From positions 1 to 27,301 of IMG/VR virus record IMGVR_UViG_3300042311_000757: a DNA stretch of 27,301 bases; one strand, written 5' to 3'. The notes under the pieces were generated by a model. It was given only the letters and a program-made list of their open reading frames with translations. It was not told where the DNA came from and did not search any database. The stretch is from a virus. Shown here piece after piece: positions 4,021-19,757 of this stretch. Positions within the stretch are counted from its first letter, which is position 1. Every line of letters starts with the position of its first letter. A program made the position numbers and the translations under genes.

Positions 4021-4428
4021 ATGAATTTAATAGAAATATTTAGTATAATAATTATACATTGGTTTGCAGATTTTTTAATGCAAGATGAAAAATGGGCGTT
4101 AGGTAAAAGTAAAAATTGGGATGATTTAATAATGCACACATTAACATATAGTTTAATGTGGCTTGGTGCTGGATTAACATGGTGTTTATTTGATTTAAAT
4201 AATGCTTCAAAAATAGCAGATTATACATTATGGTTTGTACCAATAACTTTTATAGCTCATACAATAACAGATTATTTTACATCACGTATTGTAAGTAAAA
4301 AATTTGCTAAAGGAGAATATGGTAGTTCAATACCTAATATAGGTGCTTTTACAATAATTGGAATAGATCAAGTTTTACACTATATGCAATTGTTTTTAAC
4401 TTATTATATATTAGTAAAATGGCAGTAA
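4021..4428 (+). CDS. DUF3307-like integral membrane protein
   Basis: A 135-aa protein with about four hydrophobic segments (IFSIIIIHWFADFLM, LTYSLMWLGAGLTWCLF, YTLWFVPITFIAHTI and a C-terminal VLHYMQLFLTYYILV). The conserved-looking polar residues of DUF3307 are present: HWFADFLMQ near the start, LIMHTLTYSL, IAHTITDYFTSR in the centre and IDQVLHYMQL at the end. These buried His, Asp and Gln residues are typical of this small membrane family, whose function is not established. In a phage it would sit in the host inner membrane, perhaps altering the envelope or excluding other phages; that is speculation. It starts 2 bases after the phosphoesterase. Confidence 0.75.
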   Translation: MNLIEIFSIIIIHWFADFLMQDEKWALGKSKNWDDLIMHTLTYSLMWLGAGLTWCLFDLNNASKIADYTLWFVPITFIAHTITDYFTSRIVSKKFAKGEYGSSIPNIGAFTIIGIDQVLHYMQLFLTYYILVKWQ

Positions 4429-4458
4429 TAGATAAAATAATTTAATAAAAATTAGGAA

Positions 4459-4483
4459 TTGTAAAATAAGTTTCGTATATTTG
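4459..4483 (+). promoter_or_regulatory. Possible promoter for the free-standing endonuclease
   Basis: TATATTTG at 4476-4483 matches the Bacteroidota -7 element and lies 23 bases before ATG 4507, in the only sizeable gap of this part of the block (4429-4506). The nearest TTG (4459-4461) is only 14 bases upstream instead of about 20, so the -33 half is poor. Confidence 0.4.
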
Positions 4484-4506
4484 TATAAATTAATAATTTA
4501 TATAAA

Positions 4507-5115
4507 ATGATAGGAATTTATAAAATAACAAGTCCTAGTGGTAGAATATATATTGGACGGTCACTTAATGTTGAAAAAAGATTTAAACAATATAAATCAT
4601 TTAGTAAAAGTAATAATACTCAAATTAAATTAATTCGTTCTTTAAAAAAGCATGGAATTAATAATCATACGTTTGAAATTATTGAAGAATGTAGTTTTGA
4701 AGATTTAAATATTCGAGAAAGATACTGGCAAGAGTTTTATAATGTTATTGGTAAAAATGGTTTAAATTGTGTTTTAACAAAAACTAATGAAAAACCTTGT
4801 GTTTTTTCAAAAGAAACTAGAGATAAAATTAGTAAAGCACATAAAGGTAAAAAGAAAAAACCTTTTACTAAAAAACATATTGAAAATTTATCAAAATCAC
4901 ATAAAGGTAAAATTTTTTCAAAAGAAACTAAATTAAAAATGTCAAAATCTTCGTTAAAGTGTAATAGTAAAATTTTAATTTCACTAAATACTGGAATTTT
5001 TTATAATTCAATTACAGAAGCTTCTTTTATTTATGAAATAAAACGAACAACACTTAACGCAATGTTAAAAGGACAATTAAAAAATAAAACAGATTTAATA
5101 TATTGTAATGAGTAA
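4507..5115 (+). CDS. Free-standing GIY-YIG homing endonuclease with NUMOD3 repeats
   Basis: A 202-aa DNA endonuclease. The catalytic domain shows GIY (residues 3-5), RIYIG (13-17), HTFEII (54-59), a catalytic-type Glu in IRERYW (E71) and Asn 87 in GLNCVL. The DNA-binding part has repeated NUMOD3-like units (FSKETRDKISKAHKGKK, KKHIENLSKSHKGK, FSKETKLKMSKS) and then a NUMOD1-like ILISLNTGIFYNSITEASF region. No group I core elements surround it and the neighbouring gene is whole, so it is a free-standing (intronless) homing gene. It follows a 78-base gap with a promoter-like site and overlaps the thymidylate synthase start by 8 bases (ATGAGTAA). I-TevI of T4 belongs to the same nuclease class and targets the T4 thymidylate synthase gene. 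Confidence 0.9.
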   Translation: MIGIYKITSPSGRIYIGRSLNVEKRFKQYKSFSKSNNTQIKLIRSLKKHGINNHTFEIIEECSFEDLNIRERYWQEFYNVIGKNGLNCVLTKTNEKPCVFSKETRDKISKAHKGKKKKPFTKKHIENLSKSHKGKIFSKETKLKMSKSSLKCNSKILISLNTGIFYNSITEASFIYEIKRTTLNAMLKGQLKNKTDLIYCNE

Positions 5116-6211
5116 AATTGATAAAACATACCATCAGTTGTTAAATAAAATAATAACTGATGGTTATACATATGAAGATCCTAATAGAAAAAATGTTAAT
5201 AGAATTGAGATACCGAGTTATACATTTAGACATGAATTTAAAGATGGTTTTCCAGCAATAAGCACAAAAAAACTCCATTACAAAAATGTTGTAACAGAGT
5301 TAATATGGTTTTTACGTGGTGATACAAATATCAAATATCTTGTAGATAATGGTTGTAATATTTGGAATAAAGATGCTTATAATTATTATTGTAAACAATG
5401 TAATATTCATAAAGTAGAACCTATGACATTTATTAGATTTATAAGTAGTTTAAAAAATATATCTAATAAAAAATATCATTTTTTACCAAATTATACTAAT
5501 TATAAATTAGGAGATTTAGGACCTGTTTATGGACACCAGTGGAGAAAGTGGACAGACGGTTATTATAACGGTGTAGACCAAATTCAAAGATTAATTACTA
5601 ATCTTAAAGAAAAACCTTTAGCTCCAGATCATATTGTTAATTCTTGGAATGCTGGTGATTTAGAAGATATGGCTTTACCACCATGTCATTATGGTTTTCA
5701 AATAGTTGTAAGACCTTTAAGTTTTAAAGAGAGATGTTTGTTGTACTCTAATGGAAAAATGTATTTTGAAGCAGAAGAAACAAGTGATATTGAAGAAATG
5801 TTTGATGTTCATAAAATTCATAAGTATGGTTTTGAACTTCATTGGAGTCAGAGAAGTGTAGATACATTCCTTGGATTGCCTTATAATATAGCTTCATATG
5901 CTACATTAGCGTTGATTTTAGAGAAGATTACAGGTTATAAAGCATTAGCTATACAAGGAGATTTAAAGAAGGTTCATTTGTACGATAATAGCTTAGAAGC
6001 TGTTAAAGAACAATTAAGTAGAGATGTTGATAAATATAATAAATGTGAATTAAAAAATTCAGATGAATTAGATGCTATTTTTTTAAATTTTGAAACAAAT
6101 TCTTTTGATTTAGATAAAACAATTAATTTTTTAAAATCTGAATATTTTCAATTACAAAATTATGAATCATATCCAGCTATTAATGTAAAAATGTTAGAGA
6201 GAGATAAATAA
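5108..6211 (+). CDS. thyA: Thymidylate synthase (ThyA type), long form
   Basis: Converts dUMP and methylene-tetrahydrofolate to dTMP and dihydrofolate. Seen motifs: TELIWFLRGDTN (residues 63-74, with E64), GDLGPVYGHQWRKW (135-148), PPCHYGFQ with catalytic C193 (191-198), SQRSVDTFLGLPYNIASYA (247-265) with N260 in the position that selects dUMP over dCMP, and HLYDNS (290-295). At 367 aa it is about 100 longer than E. coli ThyA. Insertions lie at about 91-134 (a position where some bacterial enzymes also carry one), at about 215-243, and near the C-terminus. Odd: the segment that is SRRIIVSAWN in E. coli reads APDHIVNSWN (172-181), so the two arginines that bind phosphate across the dimer are missing. 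The C-terminus also extends past the usual end. It overlaps the endonuclease gene by 8 bases. Confidence 0.93.
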   Translation: MSKIDKTYHQLLNKIITDGYTYEDPNRKNVNRIEIPSYTFRHEFKDGFPAISTKKLHYKNVVTELIWFLRGDTNIKYLVDNGCNIWNKDAYNYYCKQCNIHKVEPMTFIRFISSLKNISNKKYHFLPNYTNYKLGDLGPVYGHQWRKWTDGYYNGVDQIQRLITNLKEKPLAPDHIVNSWNAGDLEDMALPPCHYGFQIVVRPLSFKERCLLYSNGKMYFEAEETSDIEEMFDVHKIHKYGFELHWSQRSVDTFLGLPYNIASYATLALILEKITGYKALAIQGDLKKVHLYDNSLEAVKEQLSRDVDKYNKCELKNSDELDAIFLNFETNSFDLDKTINFLKSEYFQLQNYESYPAINVKMLERDK

Positions 6212-6954: not shown

Positions 6955-6997
6955 AAAAAGCCGTAGCGACCTTAATTGGTTACTACGGCTTTTTTTT
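6955..6997. terminator. Bidirectional intrinsic terminator between converging gene blocks
   Basis: AAAAAGCCGTAG (6955-6966) pairs with CTACGGCTTTTT (from 6983). Inside it, GACC pairs with GGTT around a TTAATT loop, with one C-A mismatch. The stem is GC-rich in very AT-rich DNA. On the + strand it is followed by a run of T to 6997; on the - strand it is followed by TTTTT. It lies between the end of the + block (6949) and the end of the - block (7009), so it can serve both. Confidence 0.88.
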
Positions 6998-11226: not shown

Positions 11227-11721
11227 TTATAATAATTTATCACCAACATAATGATCTATAATCAACATATCAGTACTTAGTTTAAAAATATCTAAATTAG
11301 TAATAGCTTTACCAATTTCTTCTTGTTGTTCTGCACAATATTTAGAAGCTAATGCATATAATACATGATTCCCTTCTTTTAAAGCAGTAGAAGCTAATTC
11401 TTCACATTGTCTTGTAATATCAAGTTCGTGTTCTAAAGTCGCTTCAAAAACATCTTTAAGACTAGTAATCTCCATTTCTGGAGACTCTAGTTTCATAAGA
11501 CAAGGTGTAATACCATAATCTAAAAGATATGATTTAGACCACTGTGCGTGTTTTAATTCTTCATCTGAATACTTTTTATATAATTCTGAACAATTTAAAA
11601 AACCTTCATTATTTAACCATAATGATAGTTGTTCATATAATCTTGAAGAAAATTCTTCTTGTTGTATTCTGTAGTTTAAAGTATCTACAATTATTTTACT
11701 TAATAAGTTTGATTTATCCAT
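11227..11721 (-). CDS. Bacterial-type non-haem ferritin
   Basis: A 164-aa iron-storage protein that oxidises Fe2+ and stores it in a 24-subunit shell. The whole length aligns by eye with E. coli FtnA. Ferroxidase residues are all present: E22 (QQEEFSSRLYEQ, FtnA E17), Y29, E55 and H58 in YSDEELKHAQ (FtnA E50 and H53), E99 in LEHELDIT (FtnA E94), and Q132, E134, E135 in AEQQEEI (FtnA Q127, E129, E130). The LESPEMEITSLKDVFE turn matches FtnA's VESPFAEYSSLDELF. The length is about the usual 165. It is not Dps-like. Its ATG overlaps the RNA polymerase stop by 1 base (TAATG), so it is translated in the virion operon, between the polymerase and the metallopeptidase gene. Family assignment is firm; location in virion or cell is unknown. 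Confidence 0.92.
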   Translation of the reverse strand: MDKSNLLSKIIVDTLNYRIQQEEFSSRLYEQLSLWLNNEGFLNCSELYKKYSDEELKHAQWSKSYLLDYGITPCLMKLESPEMEITSLKDVFEATLEHELDITRQCEELASTALKEGNHVLYALASKYCAEQQEEIGKAITNLDIFKLSTDMLIIDHYVGDKLL

Positions 11722-14702
11722 TATTTACATATTTTTTTAAGCAGTTCTGCTAATTCATCTTCAGATAATTTACTTAAATCATCTACATTATTTACTCCTG
11801 ATTCGTTAAACTTATTTAACATTAAACTTTGTTCAAACATTTCTTTTAAACTATTCATAGTTTTAGATTCTTGAATATTATCAAATAAAGATAATTGTTG
11901 AATTTCAACAATTGGTGTAACTTCAGATACTATCATTGGCTCACTACCATATTGCATTGAATTTAAAAATTCTTCCATATTTACATCTTCATATAAATTA
12001 TCAACACTATCTGTAGGTACAAAATCTTCTATTTGAGGTGATTGTACATCTAAGTCAGGTTTAATAGTTGTCTTAACATCGACATAGTCTGAATAAGTGA
12101 TTAAAGATCTATCATTTAATTTATTAATAACATCTTCAATTCTTTGATAAACACCTTGTTTTAATTCATTATAACCTACAAGTTTATAATATTGTTTAGG
12201 TATATTTGCTAAAGGATCTGCTCCTAATTTTGAAGGTATTCTTAATTCTACATATTTACGAGATTTACCAGGTTCTTTCATTATAAAATCATTAGTAAAA
12301 TCTTGTTCACTTTTTAAATTTTTAGTAAATGTATAAATTAAACTATCTTTTATTTTTTTAACATATTTTTTATTAGTTAAATTATTTAAATAAAATTTAT
12401 CTACAAAATCATTTAATTGTTCATTATTAATTTCTTCAGTAATATCTTGTATTTTACGATTAATATCGTTCTGATTAAAATATTCAGAAGGTATGAATGT
12501 AAAAAATTGATTAGTATTCATTTGAAATCCTGAAGTAATAAAACCATATTTAACTAAATCTTCAGCTAATTTGGGATTATCTATAAATAAATCTTTCCAA
12601 GAATTTGTAAATGATCTATCATAAGATTTAGATTTCTTTCTATTACCTAATTGAATTGAATCAGAATATTTATTATTTTTATAAGTTTTAATATTCATTT
12701 CATTTAACATGAAATATTTTTCACCTATTATATCTTTATATTCTTTTATTCTTTTAGGAAGATTGTCTAATAAATCTTGTGATTCTTCTTTAGATAAATT
12801 AAAGAATTTAGACATTAAATAACTATTATAATGTTTACTTAAATCTGTTAATAGTTCAGCGTCAATTGCGTTAGTACCATATAAATCATTAGATATTTCA
12901 TTAAACATATTCTTAGCTTGCGACATACCTGACGGAAATAATAAAGGATTAGCCTCTACAAGGTTTTTAACCCATTCTAATTGATTCCAATATACTCCAA
13001 GTGTAGTATTGTTTAATTTAGTATTAAAACCTCTAATTGAACCTTTAACTTGATCTATCTCTTTATCTATAACTTGTTCATATAAATTAAAAATACCAAA
13101 TAAACTATTGTGATCTTTTCCAAAACCATCAGTATCAATTTTAGATAGTCTTACAGTTTCACCAAGATTTTTAGAGTATTCAACTAAATCTTTAAATGTT
13201 TTTAGTAAATTAACTTCAAACATTAACGAATCTTCATTTTTATTTTTAATCTTATTTTGATTTCTAAAGTATTTTAAATTTAATTTAAACTTATTATATT
13301 GTAAAGTATTTCTATCAAATATATTTAAAGGTTTTGCATCAAAAACAGAATTATTAATACTTATAATATCTTTTCTTACTTTTTCTAAATCATCTGTTTC
13401 TAACTTTAATTTTTTATTTAATATATTTAAAGAATCTTTAAGTTCTTTATCTATACTAACTAGTTCTTCATCATATTGTTGTTGATTAATATATCCTTTA
13501 TCTAAACGATATTTTAATTTCTCTTTACGTTCTTCAACATTTAATTTATTAAATTGTTTATCATAAATTGCACCCAAATCAAGTTTAAATCCTTGTTTTT
13601 TAGCATAATTATTTAAATTATTTATTACTAGCTCTGCTTTAAATGATTCCATTAAATCTCCAGGTTCATTTTCAGTTAAACCTTCTTTAGATTTTTGAAA
13701 TTCTACATATTGTGTAATAACATCATTTGCTAAAAAGTTTACAACATATAGTGGATGTGCACCCAATCTTAATAATAAGTTTCCAACATTTGTTGTAGAT
13801 GTTGTCCAGTTACCTTTAGAAATATATGGATCTTTTGCAATATCCACAAATGCATTCAAAATAGCTGTTAAAGAATCAATTGTTTTTACTTTACGAAGTT
13901 CATTTTTAAACTCTTTAATTCTTTCAGAATCTGCATTTTTATCAACAAGTTCATTAACATAATAATTTAAATCTTCTTCAGATAATTTTTCAGAAAACTC
14001 TAAGTCAAATATTGATTCACCTTCTATATTGTGATGACCCCATAAAATATCTTTAACATCATTTAAAACTAATTTACCAGGTCTACTAATATCAACCATA
14101 GCATTAGCTTCTTGTCCAACTCCTGCTTTACCACCTAATAAAGAATATCTTAATTTAGTGTCTACTTCAGGATCAAAATGATTCATAAATATATTAGATT
14201 TATCAGGAAAAATATCTTTAATTTCTTTTTCTATAAAATCAATATCAATAGGTTTCATTACACTTGAATAAACTTCAGGATGTGTAAGTACTGATTTATA
14301 TAATTCAATTAATTTATTTCCTAAATCTCTAACATCATATTTTAAACTTTCAACCGTGTCAAAATCAGTTTGATCTTTAATATCTTTTAATAACGGTGAT
14401 TGTTTTTTAGTTTTACGTAAAACGTTAATAAATAAATTTACAGTATCTTTATATAATTGTTTTTCTAAATCTTGGGTATCACTTACATTTGAAATATTTA
14501 AAATTTCTTCTGCAAAATCATCTACATTAAATGATTCATCATAATCAGGATTAATTTGATCAATTACTTTATTAATATTATCAATTGTTTCCTCTTTAGT
14601 TTTACCTTTTAAATTTGTACGAACATAATTAAAAATTTTATCTGACAAATTATATTGAGGTACAATTTTAGGAAACATTATATACATTTTATCAACGTCA
14701 AA
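11721..14702 (-). CDS. Virion RNA polymerase, 3' exon (catalytic Asp loop and C-terminal part)
   Basis: Encodes 993 residues beginning FDVDKMYIMFPK, the second half of the metal-binding DFDVD loop. The ATG just before it (14703-14705) is the last three bases of the intron, so it is not a genuine start. Joined after GAT 15657 in the first exon, the frame reads GSD-FDVDKMYIM. The rest contains long charged helical regions, a LGGKAGVGQEANAMVDISRP segment, an NGPL-free charged middle and an acidic tail rich in Val and Glu that ends LLKKICK. This part would complete the second double-psi barrel side and C-terminal domains of the crAss-like polymerase; I cannot assign the domains further. The stop overlaps the ferritin start. 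Confidence 0.87.
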   Translation of the reverse strand, partial: FDVDKMYIMFPKIVPQYNLSDKIFNYVRTNLKGKTKEETIDNINKVIDQINPDYDESFNVDDFAEEILNISNVSDTQDLEKQLYKDTVNLFINVLRKTKKQSPLLKDIKDQTDFDTVESLKYDVRDLGNKLIELYKSVLTHPEVYSSVMKPIDIDFIEKEIKDIFPDKSNIFMNHFDPEVDTKLRYSLLGGKAGVGQEANAMVDISRPGKLVLNDVKDILWGHHNIEGESIFDLEFSEKLSEEDLNYYVNELVDKNADSERIKEFKNELRKVKTIDSLTAILNAFVDIAKDPYISKGNWTTSTTNVGNLLLRLGAHPLYVVNFLANDVITQYVEFQKSKEGLTENEPGDLMESFKAELVINNLNNYAKKQGFKLDLGAIYDKQFNKLNVEERKEKLKYRLDKGYINQQQYDEELVSIDKELKDSLNILNKKLKLETDDLEKVRKDIISINNSVFDAKPLNIFDRNTLQYNKFKLNLKYFRNQNKIKNKNEDSLMFEVNLLKTFKDLVEYSKNLGETVRLSKIDTDGFGKDHNSLFGIFNLYEQVIDKEIDQVKGSIRGFNTKLNNTTLGVYWNQLEWVKNLVEANPLLFPSGMSQAKNMFNEISNDLYGTNAIDAELLTDLSKHYNSYLMSKFFNLSKEESQDLLDNLPKRIKEYKDIIGEKYFMLNEMNIKTYKNNKYSDSIQLGNRKKSKSYDRSFTNSWKDLFIDNPKLAEDLVKYGFITSGFQMNTNQFFTFIPSEYFNQNDINRKIQDITEEINNEQLNDFVDKFYLNNLTNKKYVKKIKDSLIYTFTKNLKSEQDFTNDFIMKEPGKSRKYVELRIPSKLGADPLANIPKQYYKLVGYNELKQGVYQRIEDVINKLNDRSLITYSDYVDVKTTIKPDLDVQSPQIEDFVPTDSVDNLYEDVNMEEFLNSMQYGSEPMIVSEVTPIVEIQQLSLFDNIQESKTMNSLKEMFEQSLMLNKFNESGVNNVDDLSKLSEDELAELLKKICK

Positions 14703-15656
14703 CATTTATGTTAACTCATACTTTCATATGAGATCAGACTATATCTTCACTATTTTTAGTGTATTGTGTTTCGAGTTATTAAACTCTACGCAACGTAATC
14801 TTTACGTTGGCTCAAATCATATTGAATTTTATATAGCATCGACGGACATGATTCTACATAAGGTTTTATTAATTGTATAAATTTAACACCTTCTTGTGTT
14901 CCACAACACAAAGAATAAGTTTCTTTACCTTCTTTAAATTGATAAAAAGATATATTCCAAACTTCTTTAAAATAATCTATTATAATTTGGTTTTGTTCTT
15001 TAGTTAAACATGTTGCAATTTTAATATAAAAACCATGAACTTTATTTTCAGTTTTTCTAATGTTAATATGACCATCGTCCATATACCAAATTGCAATTGT
15101 TAATTCGTTTAATCTATTTAATAGTTTGCGATTAGCATAATTTTTTTTAGGATTATAAATTACTCTTCTTAAAACTTTAATAAAGGGTATAATACTTAAT
15201 TGAGAATAATAAACTTTAGATCCAATATTATAACCTACTGTTTGAATGTATTCTTTTAAACCATTATTTTTTATACCATATTTATTAAGAAGTTTAATTT
15301 TCCATTCTAAATATTCTTTTTGTTTTTCTCCGTGTGAAAGTTTAAACACGTAGTTATTAGAAATTGTTCCGTCACCTAATAACATTCCAATAATCAAGTT
15401 TCTTGACTCTTTGTTAAATTTTGTTTTCATATGATTTTGTTTGTGTTACCCATATAGGGAACTATTAATTTGAGCATTAGTCGTTGAACCCTCTCCATAT
15501 TAAAGGAGCTCGGCTGCTGATTGTCCATTCGCCATCTTTGTAATTTTTAAACATTCACGCTTATTTTTTCAAATTACGTTGTAGTTTACAAAGCTTTAGG
15601 AGTTTCCAGCAATTAACAATATTTTTATTTTTATACTGGGTCAAACATTAACGTTT
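14703..15656 (-). ncRNA. Group I intron in the RNA polymerase gene
   Basis: An intron of about 954 nt. Positions are + strand; sequences are read on the transcript. P1: exon ACTGGGTCTGAT (15657-15668) pairs with GTTTGACCCAGT (15635-15646): eight perfect pairs, one U-U, then G-U, A-U and a U-G at the splice site. Core elements: AATTGCTGGAAACTCC (P, 15599-15614), AATCAGCAGCCGAGC (Q, 15508-15522, P4 GCTG/CAGC), and GGGTTCAACGACTAATGCTC (R, 15472-15491). The matching GAAGATATAGTC is at 14737-14748, so GACTA pairs with TAGTC as P7. A P9 hairpin CTCATA/TATGAG lies at 14715-14732. The last intron base is G. These are textbook group I elements, close to the IA type of T-even phages. The endonuclease ORF lies between R and S. 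Splicing restores DFDVD. Confidence 0.92.
14786..15430 (-). CDS. Intron-encoded LAGLIDADG homing endonuclease
   Basis: A 214-aa homing endonuclease of the LAGLIDADG class, in which two helices carry the metal-binding Asp at their ends. Helix 1: LIIGMLLGDGTI (residues 12-23). Helix 2: LTIAIWYMDDGH (about 110-121). Both are in the form seen in the LAGLIDADG_2 type family (phage and organelle introns). The protein is basic, as expected for DNA binding. It lies wholly inside the group I intron, ending about 37 bases before the P7 3' strand, so unlike the GIY-YIG gene it does not overlap the core. No TAnnTTTG site is seen upstream, so it is probably translated from the polymerase pre-mRNA. Expected target: the intronless polymerase gene around the GSDFDVD codons. 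Confidence 0.9.
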   Translation of the reverse strand: MKTKFNKESRNLIIGMLLGDGTISNNYVFKLSHGEKQKEYLEWKIKLLNKYGIKNNGLKEYIQTVGYNIGSKVYYSQLSIIPFIKVLRRVIYNPKKNYANRKLLNRLNELTIAIWYMDDGHINIRKTENKVHGFYIKIATCLTKEQNQIIIDYFKEVWNISFYQFKEGKETYSLCCGTQEGVKFIQLIKPYVESCPSMLYKIQYDLSQRKDYVA

Positions 15657-18600
15657 ATCAGACCCAGTTTTAGTAGTAATCCCTGTATAAGCTACAATTG
15701 TATCTCCTGCAGATTCAGGTAATATACCTACAATTTGTAAAGCATCATTTGAAGCTAAACCTTGATTAGGAATACGATAACCTATAATATTATCTAATAT
15801 TTTAGGATCAATTAAACCTTTAACAAATTCGCCATTTTCATTTGTATAACCAAATATTTGTTCAGGTGTTTTAGTTTTCCAATTAGGTATATATTTTGCA
15901 ATAAAACTACCTGACACTAATATACCACCAGGTCTTACTGTACGTCTTAATGTATCAGGATCTATATACATATGAGGTTCATGGACTGTTTCTAATGCAT
16001 TAGGACTCCATATCACACCTTTACTATCTACTTCTGACTTATTTAAACCAAAGTTTGACATTTGAATAAATGCTCCACCATTAGTTTTAATTTTAATAAG
16101 TCTACTTTTCATTATAGAAGCAAATATATTATATAATTTTCCTGCTGATTGAGGAATACCTACAATAGTTGTTTCAGTTTCTAATGCTTTAATAACATTT
16201 TCAGAACCACCACGCTGTTCTAATTCTCTAATTAATGATTTGTAAAATCCAGAAATATTTCCTATTTTATAATCATCACCAATATTGAATTCTTCTTTTA
16301 ATGATTTTAAACCTTTATCAGATAATCCTGAAACTGTTTTAACAATTTCATCCATTATTTGTTTACCTGTATAAGACTTACCATCTAACATAAATCCATC
16401 TAATGTTTCATTATGTCTTAAACCTGCAAATATATTTTTTTGAATTTGTGATCCAACATCAATATTTTTAAATGTTTTTGTAGGTAAGTCTTGTTGAAGT
16501 TTCCAATCTCTGTTAGATAACGTTTGTACATTTAGAGGAAAATCTTCTAAAATATTACCGTTTTCATCATGTATTTGTGTTGGTTCAATAGCTCCTACTT
16601 TAACACCATCAAATGTAATAAGTTCGTCAACATTATTATCAATCATTTTGTTATACATTGTTTCTAAATCAGAACCTTGTATTAATGCTTTAGATAATAC
16701 TGCTTGAGAATATTTTAAATATGTTGGTTTTCCAGTAGCATCTCTACCAAAAAATACACCTTTTAAAGGTTGTGCTGCAATTTTTAATTCTTTTTCAGAA
16801 TATTCTTCAACTTTATCAGACATCATTTTACGATAAACTTCATCATGTGCTTTAGACCATTTACCTAAACCTTGTATTAAAAATTTCCAACGTTGAGGTG
16901 TAATCCAAGCTTGAGCATCTGCAGAGTTAATTTTCTCATAAGGTTGTGCGTCTTTTTCTCCTAAACTTTCTACTAATTTATCATAAAAAGGAGATTTTCT
17001 ATTTACACTATTAATTGTAGCAATATTAAAATATTCTTGACCTTCTTTAATTCTTAACTGTAAACCATCTGTATATGTAGCAGGAATACGTTTTTTATAA
17101 TCAATCATATTCTTATAATAAGCTACATCACCTGCAAACATTTTAGAATATTCTATATTAGATATTAAATTGTTTACTAAATAATCCATTACTACTGCGT
17201 AAGGTTTTTGAGCTTCATGTATTTTAGAATATGTTTTAGTAACAGTATTATTATCTATTTTATTTATTACATAATCACCTTTTTCATTAATATTTAATAT
17301 ACCCATAGAAGTTAAATAACTTCTTGTTCTAACAAATGAATTAAATAAATTAAGTTCTAAATATCTACTAAATAAATCATATAATTCTTCACTAGATTCT
17401 TTAGTTAATTTATTAAATAAAACATTACCTTCTTTATCAAATATTAATTCAGAAATTTGTTTTTCTAATGGTGATTTATTTTTAGCATTGAATGATAATT
17501 TTTCAAAATATTGAAAATTAAAAGCATTACCATTTTTTGAATAAATATATTCAGGATTTTTATTTATTGTATCAACATCATATTTATAATGATAATGAGG
17601 TGTTAATTTTATAGAAGAATCTAATTTAGCATTTTCAACTTCTTGATTTGCTTCAATCATTCTATTAACTTGTGATGCAAAATAATTAAAGAAAACATCT
17701 TTAGTTTGATTTTTAACACCTACAATACTTTCTTCCTCACCTTTTTCATTTACTATTGTTTTAACTCCAGCATATGAAGAAACTTTTATACCTGTTTTAA
17801 TTGCAAATTCAGTAGTCTTATCTGCTTGTGTAGTAGTTCTAATAAAGTCATCACCTTTTAAAACTTTATTTAAAACATCTACAATATAATCTGAATAAGC
17901 TAAATCTGTAGTAGTTTTAAATTTACCATCTGCAGACATTTGATTCATTATACCTACATCTAACTTTTCTAATATTTTTTTAGAATATTCTAATTGTTCA
18001 TTTAAATCTTTATAAGTAAGTTGTTTACTATTTACATCTATAGAACCTGTTAAAATACCCATATAATATGAACCTTTTGTATCACTACTTGAATTATATA
18101 ATTCTAAAAGTAATTCAGGATTAGCTTTCCATTGTTTAACTTTTGTAGCAATATATGAAGGATATGAATAAATCCATTTCTGTTTATCACCTGTTCTAAT
18201 TGTTGCATCAGAACCATCTGTTAAAAAGAAAGCTTCTGATTTAGCTAAGTTAGTAAAAGATTGTGATAATGTTAAAAAACTTGAATAGTCTTTTGTAGGA
18301 CTTTCATATTTAGTAATAATACCATTTGTAAGATACTGTGATTGTTCAGCTAAAGTAACTAAATTATTTAACTTATCTTTAATTGTTAAAAACTCACCAT
18401 AATTATCTAAATAGTTTTCAACAGCATTAATATCTGTAGTAATTCCTAATTTATCTAAAAAAGTAAATAATTTTAATTTTACATTTTCAAAAGTTTCAAT
18501 TTGAATATCTTGTTCAAGATTATTAAAATTTCTTTTAAATTCTAAAATTTCTTCATATATCGATTTAATTTCAGGAATTCCTTTAGTTAATAAATTTTGC

Positions 18601-19757
18601 TTAACATTTTCTTTTAAGGTGTTATCTTTATTTAAGAATTTATCTTGAAAATTACTATCCCATTGTTCTTTTATAGTTGTTGTCTTAGAACCTGAATCAG
18701 ATATTTGAGAAGTTGTATGAACAACAGTTCCGTTAACTTCAGAATAATTACTTACAATATGATTGTTTTTAAGTAAATTAAATGCTTGAGAAAATTCAGA
18801 ACGATATTCTTCTTTAAAATTAACATCACTTAAATAATTATATAATTGTCTTAATAAAGGTTTTCTATCTAAAACTTTACTTAAAGCATTTAATTGTAAT
18901 TCAAAAATATCTTTACCTTTTTTAGCTACAATATCTGATAATATAAATTGTAAATCTGATTGAACTGAATCTCTACTTAAAAAAACAGGTTCTCCCCAAA
19001 TAGGATCAATATTATTAGTATCTTCTAATAATGATAATCTTAATTTTACATTAGTACTAACACTATCTTTAGTATTTCTTTCAGCAGAATGTTGATTAAA
19101 TGCAGGATCTTTTAATTCTTCACCTGCAGTAATATCAATATTACCATCTACGTCATCAGTTTCTTCAATTGAAATAGACATTTCTTTAAATATTTTTTCT
19201 ACATTTGTAGAAAACTCATCAATGTAATTTAATGACTCTGTTAATGTTTTAGCAATAAGTTTATTTTTAAATCCACCTTTTTCGTTTAATTCTTGAATTT
19301 TATCAATAATTTGTTTTTGAATAAAATTAGATAAATTAGGTAGTTTTTCAGAGTTACTAAAATCAATATTATTAAAATCTAAATTAGAACCTTTAAAATA
19401 ATTCAAGGCTAATCTTGAAGCAATTTTATCAATTTGCTGATTACTAAATAAAGCAACCAACCCTCTGTTAATTAGAGGGTAGTATACTTTTTCATTATTT
19501 TTATTTAAATAATAATGTTTTTTAGAAATTTCATCATAAATTAATAATGGTTCTCCATTTTCATTTATACGATCACTTACAACATTATTTTTATAGTCTA
19601 ATATATAATCACCAAAATCTTCTATAAATGCTTCAGATTTAAAATATGTAAACATTTCATCAGCTTTAGTTTCATTTTTATCAGCTATTTTTTCATATAA
19701 ATCTTTATACAGTAAAGACTCTGCTCCACCTGTAAGAGATATTCTTGTACAACTCAT
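15657..19757 (-). CDS. Virion RNA polymerase, 5' exon (N-terminal 1367 residues)
   Basis: The first exon of a crAss-like single-subunit RNA polymerase of the two-double-psi-barrel superfamily, which in studied phages is carried in the virion and transcribes early genes after entry. The N-terminus MSCTRISLTGGAESLLYKD is typical in style. Long helical regions follow. Near the end are GKPTYLKYSQAVLSKAL (about 1055-1071), a first-barrel candidate with conserved-looking lysines, then GYRIPNQGLASNDALQIVG and GDTIVAYTGITTKTGSD, which lead straight into the catalytic loop. Unspliced, the frame adds KR and stops at 15648, so the unspliced product lacks two of the three metal-binding Asp residues. The spliced protein would be about 2360 aa with D1367-F-D1369-V-D1371. 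It has its own promoter-like site 17 bases upstream. Confidence 0.9.

Follow-up and report, generated by a model that had tools for sequence, protein, structure and literature searches.

How does a crAss-like phage whose RNA polymerase (RNAP) gene is broken within its catalytic triad make a working enzyme? The question dates from 2021, when the polymerase ORFs of zeta crAss-like phages were described as broken even within the DxDxD motif and "additional, yet unknown expression mechanisms" were proposed; the same study (Yutin et al. 2021, PMC7886860) reported many group I introns in delta and zeta crAss-like phages and, in the legend of its Fig. 3, labelled an intron endonuclease of the LAGLIDADG family within the transcription block. 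The stretch of DNA analysed here, IMGVR_UViG_3300042311_000757, positions 1 to 27,301 (27,301 nt, hereafter the window, to which all coordinates refer), raises the question anew. Read without splicing, it holds ORFs of 1369 aa (15648-19757, ending ...TGSDKR*) and 994 aa (11721-14705, beginning MFDVDKMYIM), and the first catalytic aspartate is present only in exon 1 while the other two are in exon 2. Our analysis identifies a group I intron between them, which provides a testable answer to the 2021 question.

Excision of 14703-15656 yields a single open frame of 2360 aa that reads KTGSD|FDVDKMYIM at the junction (Table 1). Exon 1 matches phi14:2 gp66 (PDB 6vr4) with a phmmer E of 8e-153, and its tblastn match in phi14:2 g066 covers residues 31-1367 and ends at record position 47725. 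The exon 2 match starts at record position 47724, the base adjoining the end of the exon 1 match. The joined protein gives one alignment to gp66 over 31-1707 (31.7% identity, E 0.0), plus a C-terminal match, and this alignment is gapless across the junction (TKTGSDFDVDKM vs TKTGSDFDIDKM), placing the DFDVD of the window opposite the DFDID at gp66 1361-1365. On this full-length homology, DFDxD included, the gene is a homologue of phi14:2 gp66 and encodes a single-chain crAss-like virion RNA polymerase; neither exon was recognised by Pfam or PHROGs. The initial annotation had listed the same two ORFs, had put the exon ends at TGSD and FDVDKMYIM with the motif restored in frame, and had named gp66 as the protein to which the joined product should align, all of which the present results bear out. 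After splicing, the predicted junction peptide is GITTKTGSDFDVDK and the predicted RNA junction GGGUCUGAU|UUUGACGUU.

Table 1. Features of the interrupted polymerase gene in the window, and alleles with an intron within the DFDxD codons (sites in nt from the site in the window)
Feature	Position	Strand	Support or members
Exon 1 of virion RNA polymerase, 1367 aa, ends ...ITTKTGSD	15657..19757	-	phmmer 6vr4; tblastn phi14:2 g066
Exon 2, 993 aa, begins FDVDKMYIM	11721..14702	-	tblastn phi14:2 g066
Group I intron, 954 nt	14703..15656	-	RF00028 in two segments; P1, P10, P7, P9, terminal G; P4/P6 consensus with covariation
P1 exon strand, ACUGGGUCUGAU	15657..15668	-	U at 5' splice site; 11/12 paired; covaries with guide
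Internal guide sequence (P1 intron strand), GUUUGACCCAGU	15635..15646	-	G opposite splice-site U
P10 intron strand, AACGUUAA	15648..15655	-	8/8 pairs with exon 2 bases 2-9 (14694-14701)
P4 5' strand UGCUGG	15606..15611	-	partner UCAGCA 15515-15520; Rfam alignment and consensus fold of 17 introns
P7 5' strand GACUA	15478..15482	-	partner UAGUC 14737-14741; Rfam alignment
P9 hairpin CUCAUAU-GAAA-GUAUGAG	14715..14732	-	7-bp stem, GAAA loop
Terminal G (3' splice site)	14703..14703	-	every listed intron ends in G
LAGLIDADG homing endonuclease, 214 aa	14786..15430	-	PF03161 E 6.7e-25; phrog_11023 E 7.6e-22; P8 region, between P3' and P7'
Site 0, 11 alleles			window/L003, L019, L035, L085, L088, L089, L090, L093 = cr131_1, L094, L095, L354
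Site +3, 7 alleles			L099, L117, L314, L377, L378, L381, L382
Site +6, 7 alleles			L016 (without ORF), L086, L087, L091, L096, L115 = cr116_1, L116 = bajarodcaudo virus 1
Site +9, 1 allele			L097

The sequence between the exons carries the parts expected of a ribozyme. In a scan of the 1-kb region (cmscan), RF00028 matched 15441-15619 (E 1.4e-6, model 52-155) and 14717-14749 (E 4.4e-4, model 219-251), two collinear segments on either side of the LAGLIDADG_2 ORF. Their scores of 33.5 and 25.2 are below the gathering threshold of 50, as expected for pieces between which an ORF intervenes, and an Rfam scan of the whole window returned no group I intron, probably since the model is interrupted there by the 645-nt ORF. 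P1 has a U.G pair at the splice site, and its pairing was never equalled when the start of the intron was shuffled 200 times; the P10 pairs form one contiguous 8-bp helix. An in-frame UAA (15648-15650) lies within the intron strand of P10, two codons past the 5' splice site, and the 3' end of the intron reads AUG. In relatives at sites 0 to +9, P9 has at least seven perfect pairs in differing sequences. A second record, L003, is identical to the window over 17,064 nt, which makes an assembly slip at the intron unlikely. The initial annotation had placed a group I intron inside DFDVD, with splice sites exact to the base, from the P1 U.G pair, P4, P7, P9 and the terminal G, and had suggested the Rfam search; its proposal agrees with what we find, to which P10, the covariation and the recurrence in other phages are additions. 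We put the probability of the mobile-intron explanation as a whole, in which 14703-15656 is a group I intron with exact boundaries that restores DFDVD in frame once removed, at about 95%.

Comparison with relatives indicates that the pairings are maintained. P4 and P6 both emerge from the predicted consensus fold of 17 related introns, and four of the P6 pairs show compensatory changes, each in 6-10 sequences. Over seven distinct site-0 alleles, P1 has nine two-sided changes compared with 2.6 in shuffles (0/500), a count among kindred rows that is not usable as a probability, and sliding the partner by one column lowers the pairing from 89% to 42-51%. These changes accompany synonymous changes in the exon, the glycine GGG/CCC of the window being GGC/GCC in L019, and in L035 ACA stands opposite UGU. 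In addition, intronless alleles of relatives confirm such predicted boundaries exactly where L087 (3818|4724) joins L200 (3312|3313), gapless and with nothing missing; L095 (3837|4734) and L216 (3299|3301) agree within 1 nt, with one base ambiguous. For the window phage, the exact spliced 27-mer had zero matches in viral_contigs, where neither a spliced junction nor a near-identical intronless copy was present, and the closest RNAP lacking the intron, that of L004, shares ~70% identity with the window across the junction region.

Several other explanations of the interrupted frame have to be weighed. Some RNA polymerases have split large subunits, and the two ORFs of the window might be translated apart and assemble as two subunits of one polymerase, in the manner of split beta' subunits, with the insert as a leftover. 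An in-frame AUG for exon 2 at the 3' splice site could in principle serve as its start, but this AUG is not conserved (ACG in L035, L088 and L099, GCG in L087), the break falls between two metal-binding aspartates, and compensatory change maintains pairing in P1, P6 and P9, all of which make a truly split gene very improbable. Downstream start codons vary among the relatives, as does intron length modulo 3. The latter bears on an intein or other in-frame insert removed at the protein level, an idea prompted by a length of 954 nt, a multiple of 3, and by the inteins that crAss-like phages do carry (PMC7886860). The early UAA means that the insert is not open in frame with its flanks, homologous inserts are often not multiples of 3 (958, 910, 911, 905 nt), and the RF00028 matches also speak against removal as protein, which we consider barely credible. 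It is also conceivable that the insertion killed the polymerase of the window phage and left a pseudogene. Such a dead intron is highly improbable in view of exons open over 2360 codons, an intact endonuclease, and the presence of all core elements and splice-site pairings.

Under the mobile-intron explanation, a LAGLIDADG group I intron sits in DFDVD between the first codon (Asp) and the second (Phe), in codons whose role in binding the catalytic metals keeps them almost unchanged. The end of exon 1 would pair with the guide to form P1 and exon 2 with the adjacent bases to form P10, and the ribozyme would excise itself through the usual two steps started by guanosine, so that GAU meets UUU and DFDVD is back in frame. 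On unspliced RNA, translation would end at the stop codon inside the intron. The anatomy of the ribozyme, its boundaries and the restored protein are established by the sequence. We strongly infer that an active polymerase requires splicing, the motif being coded correctly only with the intron removed, and we infer that splicing takes place in vivo. Virion carriage of the polymerase is stated for phi14:2 (PMC7886860), and with the polymerase carried in the virion, late splicing in one infection would decide early-gene transcription in the next. The endonuclease, which has both LAGLIDADG motifs (LLGDG and YMDDG), most likely cuts intronless alleles across the motif codons, and repair would then copy the intron in.

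The same motif is interrupted in many other crAss-like phages. Alleles were gathered by RNAP-seeded and endonuclease-seeded scans, leaving out endonuclease relatives below ~40% identity, which, where examined, belong to other genes. This yielded 26 distinct alleles in which a group I intron interrupts the DFDxD codons, and 25 of these alleles have a homologous endonuclease. In Steigviridae, Suoliviridae and zeta-like crAss phages, four neighbouring codon boundaries (0, +3, +6 and +9 nt) are taken up by a single LAGLIDADG-intron lineage. The +6 intron of L016 (L016:10814-11067), which is 254 nt long and without an ORF, is different from this lineage; it scores 85.1 bits against RF00028, above gathering (50), and its phage is close to L019, a carrier of the site-0 intron. 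Two zeta-like phages, L312 and L315, have introns of 1.36-1.39 kb (about 4155-5547) at a site 14 nt upstream of the motif, tentative at the intron 5' end, with a different ORF of 352-370 aa near that end; the L315 intron is a clear RF00028 match (74 bits). A possible site at -3 (L316) was excluded from the counts, its P1 being unsupported. The scans seeded with the RNAP met introns in or close to the motif at 4/79, 3/80, 3/80 and 4/38 loci (the last including L316, L312 and L315), frequencies that are underestimates because one search pattern crosses the junction. All four well-defined sites are phase 0, and the need for a U before the splice site, which D, F/Y, D and I codons supply at their third base in these AT-rich genes, may suffice to explain this. 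The kind of element is already known, and what is new is the recurrence of introns at the same motif, as opposed to a one-off case. We found no published description of this motif hotspot in the literature searched, which includes only a minority of subscription journals.

Differences in divergence between intron and host gene indicate how this distribution arose. In 189 of 190 pairs of intron-bearing alleles, similarity is higher between the endonucleases than between the RNAP regions, and the median difference is 43 points. Between the window and Steigviridae, Suoliviridae and unclassified gut alleles, the RNAPs are ~22% identical and the endonucleases 65-73% (about 67%), and at the same site the exon regions of L019 and L035 are 53% and 44% identical to those of the window as against 88% and 85% for the endonucleases. 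The RNAPs of L089 and L116 are 73% identical, yet the intron interrupts the first at site 0 and the second at site +6. In a tree built from 216 RNAP segments (FastTree) the intron rows are scattered, with 25 gains or losses, at least 14 of them forced by well-supported branches, although the long branches of this tree keep the count soft and endonuclease-seeded sampling enriches introns. Judged from these comparisons, the data show that the intron moved repeatedly by horizontal transfer into the same motif, and its scattered distribution fits the predicted cleavage of empty alleles by the endonuclease. Endonuclease relatives in bacterial genomes are distant, bar one crAss-like contig in a Lachnospiraceae MAG; this contig (L354, JAGAKD010000106.1) has a crAss-like RNAP with the site-0 intron and is probably a phage contig misbinned with the bacterium. 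It is tempting to speculate that the lineage specialised on the crAss RNAP active-site codons, with more than 12 invasions of the same dozen bases, shifts among four boundaries, and cutting of the gene of intronless competitors in co-infection, though the odds are somewhat against so full a scenario.

The alleles at +3 and +9 all fall in one RNAP-tree clade with zeta-like size and recoding, features from which, rather than from the accessions of Yutin et al., its zeta membership was taken. Examples include L097 (171.7 kb, frames open with TAG=Q), L099 (TGA=W) and L381 (178.9 kb). Compared with the zeta breaks reported in 2021, the eight zeta-like-clade alleles described here carry an endonuclease intron of the same lineage at +3 or +9, with splice sites defined, and group I introns probably explain the RNAP genes with a "disrupted DxDxD" (Yutin et al. 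2021). Stop recoding and an intron seem to be combined in one polymerase gene in L093, L094, L095 and L097 (TAG readthrough) and in L099 (TGA). Automatic annotation, in turn, breaks up the principal polymerase of these abundant gut phages and leaves "hypothetical proteins" without an active site. That gene callers would report two separate proteins had been foreseen in the initial annotation, and the GenBank entries of cr131_1, cr116_1 and bajarodcaudo virus 1 do list the exons and the endonuclease as separate CDSs. Their labels are nearly all "hypothetical"; one exon is labelled "VOG3903" (cr131_1/cr116_1), and an "endonuclease" stands between the exons in bajarodcaudo virus 1.

Other features of these records were noted in passing. 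The polymerase of the window is separated from the next giant ORF by a 164-aa ORF (11227-11721, minus strand); in phi14:2, g066 and g065 nearly abut (2 nt apart), with no gene between. Further along, a GIY-YIG/NUMOD3 homing-endonuclease-like gene (202 aa; region 4507-6211, plus strand) runs into the beginning of a thymidylate synthase gene, whose 367-aa product seems to have extra segments around residues 89-134 and 214-246 relative to solved enzymes. A strong hairpin, GCCGTAG...CTACGGC, with A-run and T-run flanks (6955-6997) lies between head-on gene blocks and probably terminates transcription in both directions; its match to RF02057 is weak (E 0.87). Among the crAss-like records, L117:9915-9958 contains a CRISPR-DR50-like repeat below threshold (38.7 bits, gathering 47).

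The ribozyme resembles T4 td and other phage group I introns, in which a P1/P10 guide, a G-site in P7 and a terminal G are combined with an endonuclease in a peripheral loop, a stop codon follows soon past the 5' splice site, and insertion is in the codons of critical residues; the host gene and the endonuclease family differ. In rRNA genes, group I introns a few bases apart share related endonucleases, whereas the neighbouring sites described here belong to a protein gene, fall within its active-site motif and are spaced by whole codons. Homing endonucleases habitually target codons of critical residues (PMC3984707). In these polymerases a catalytic motif has become a hotspot for mobile elements, and the constraint that keeps its codons invariant also makes them a dependable landing site. 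The closest functional precedent is gp210 of PhiPA3, for which a putative group I intron with a homing endonuclease was described in the gene of a virion RNAP beta subunit, and where a co-infecting phage without the intron has its gene cut by the endonuclease, which cripples this competitor (Science 2024, PMC11620839). In both systems the intron lies immediately after conserved aspartate codons of a virion RNAP gene. Unlike the HNH enzyme of PhiPA3, the endonuclease here belongs to the LAGLIDADG family, and the gene affected in PhiPA3 encodes the beta subunit of a multisubunit enzyme, with a fidelity-linked aspartate, whereas here it is a single-chain polymerase interrupted in its metal-binding DxDxD motif. 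Finally, PhiPA3 has one such site, while the crAss-like polymerases have a cluster of adjacent sites.
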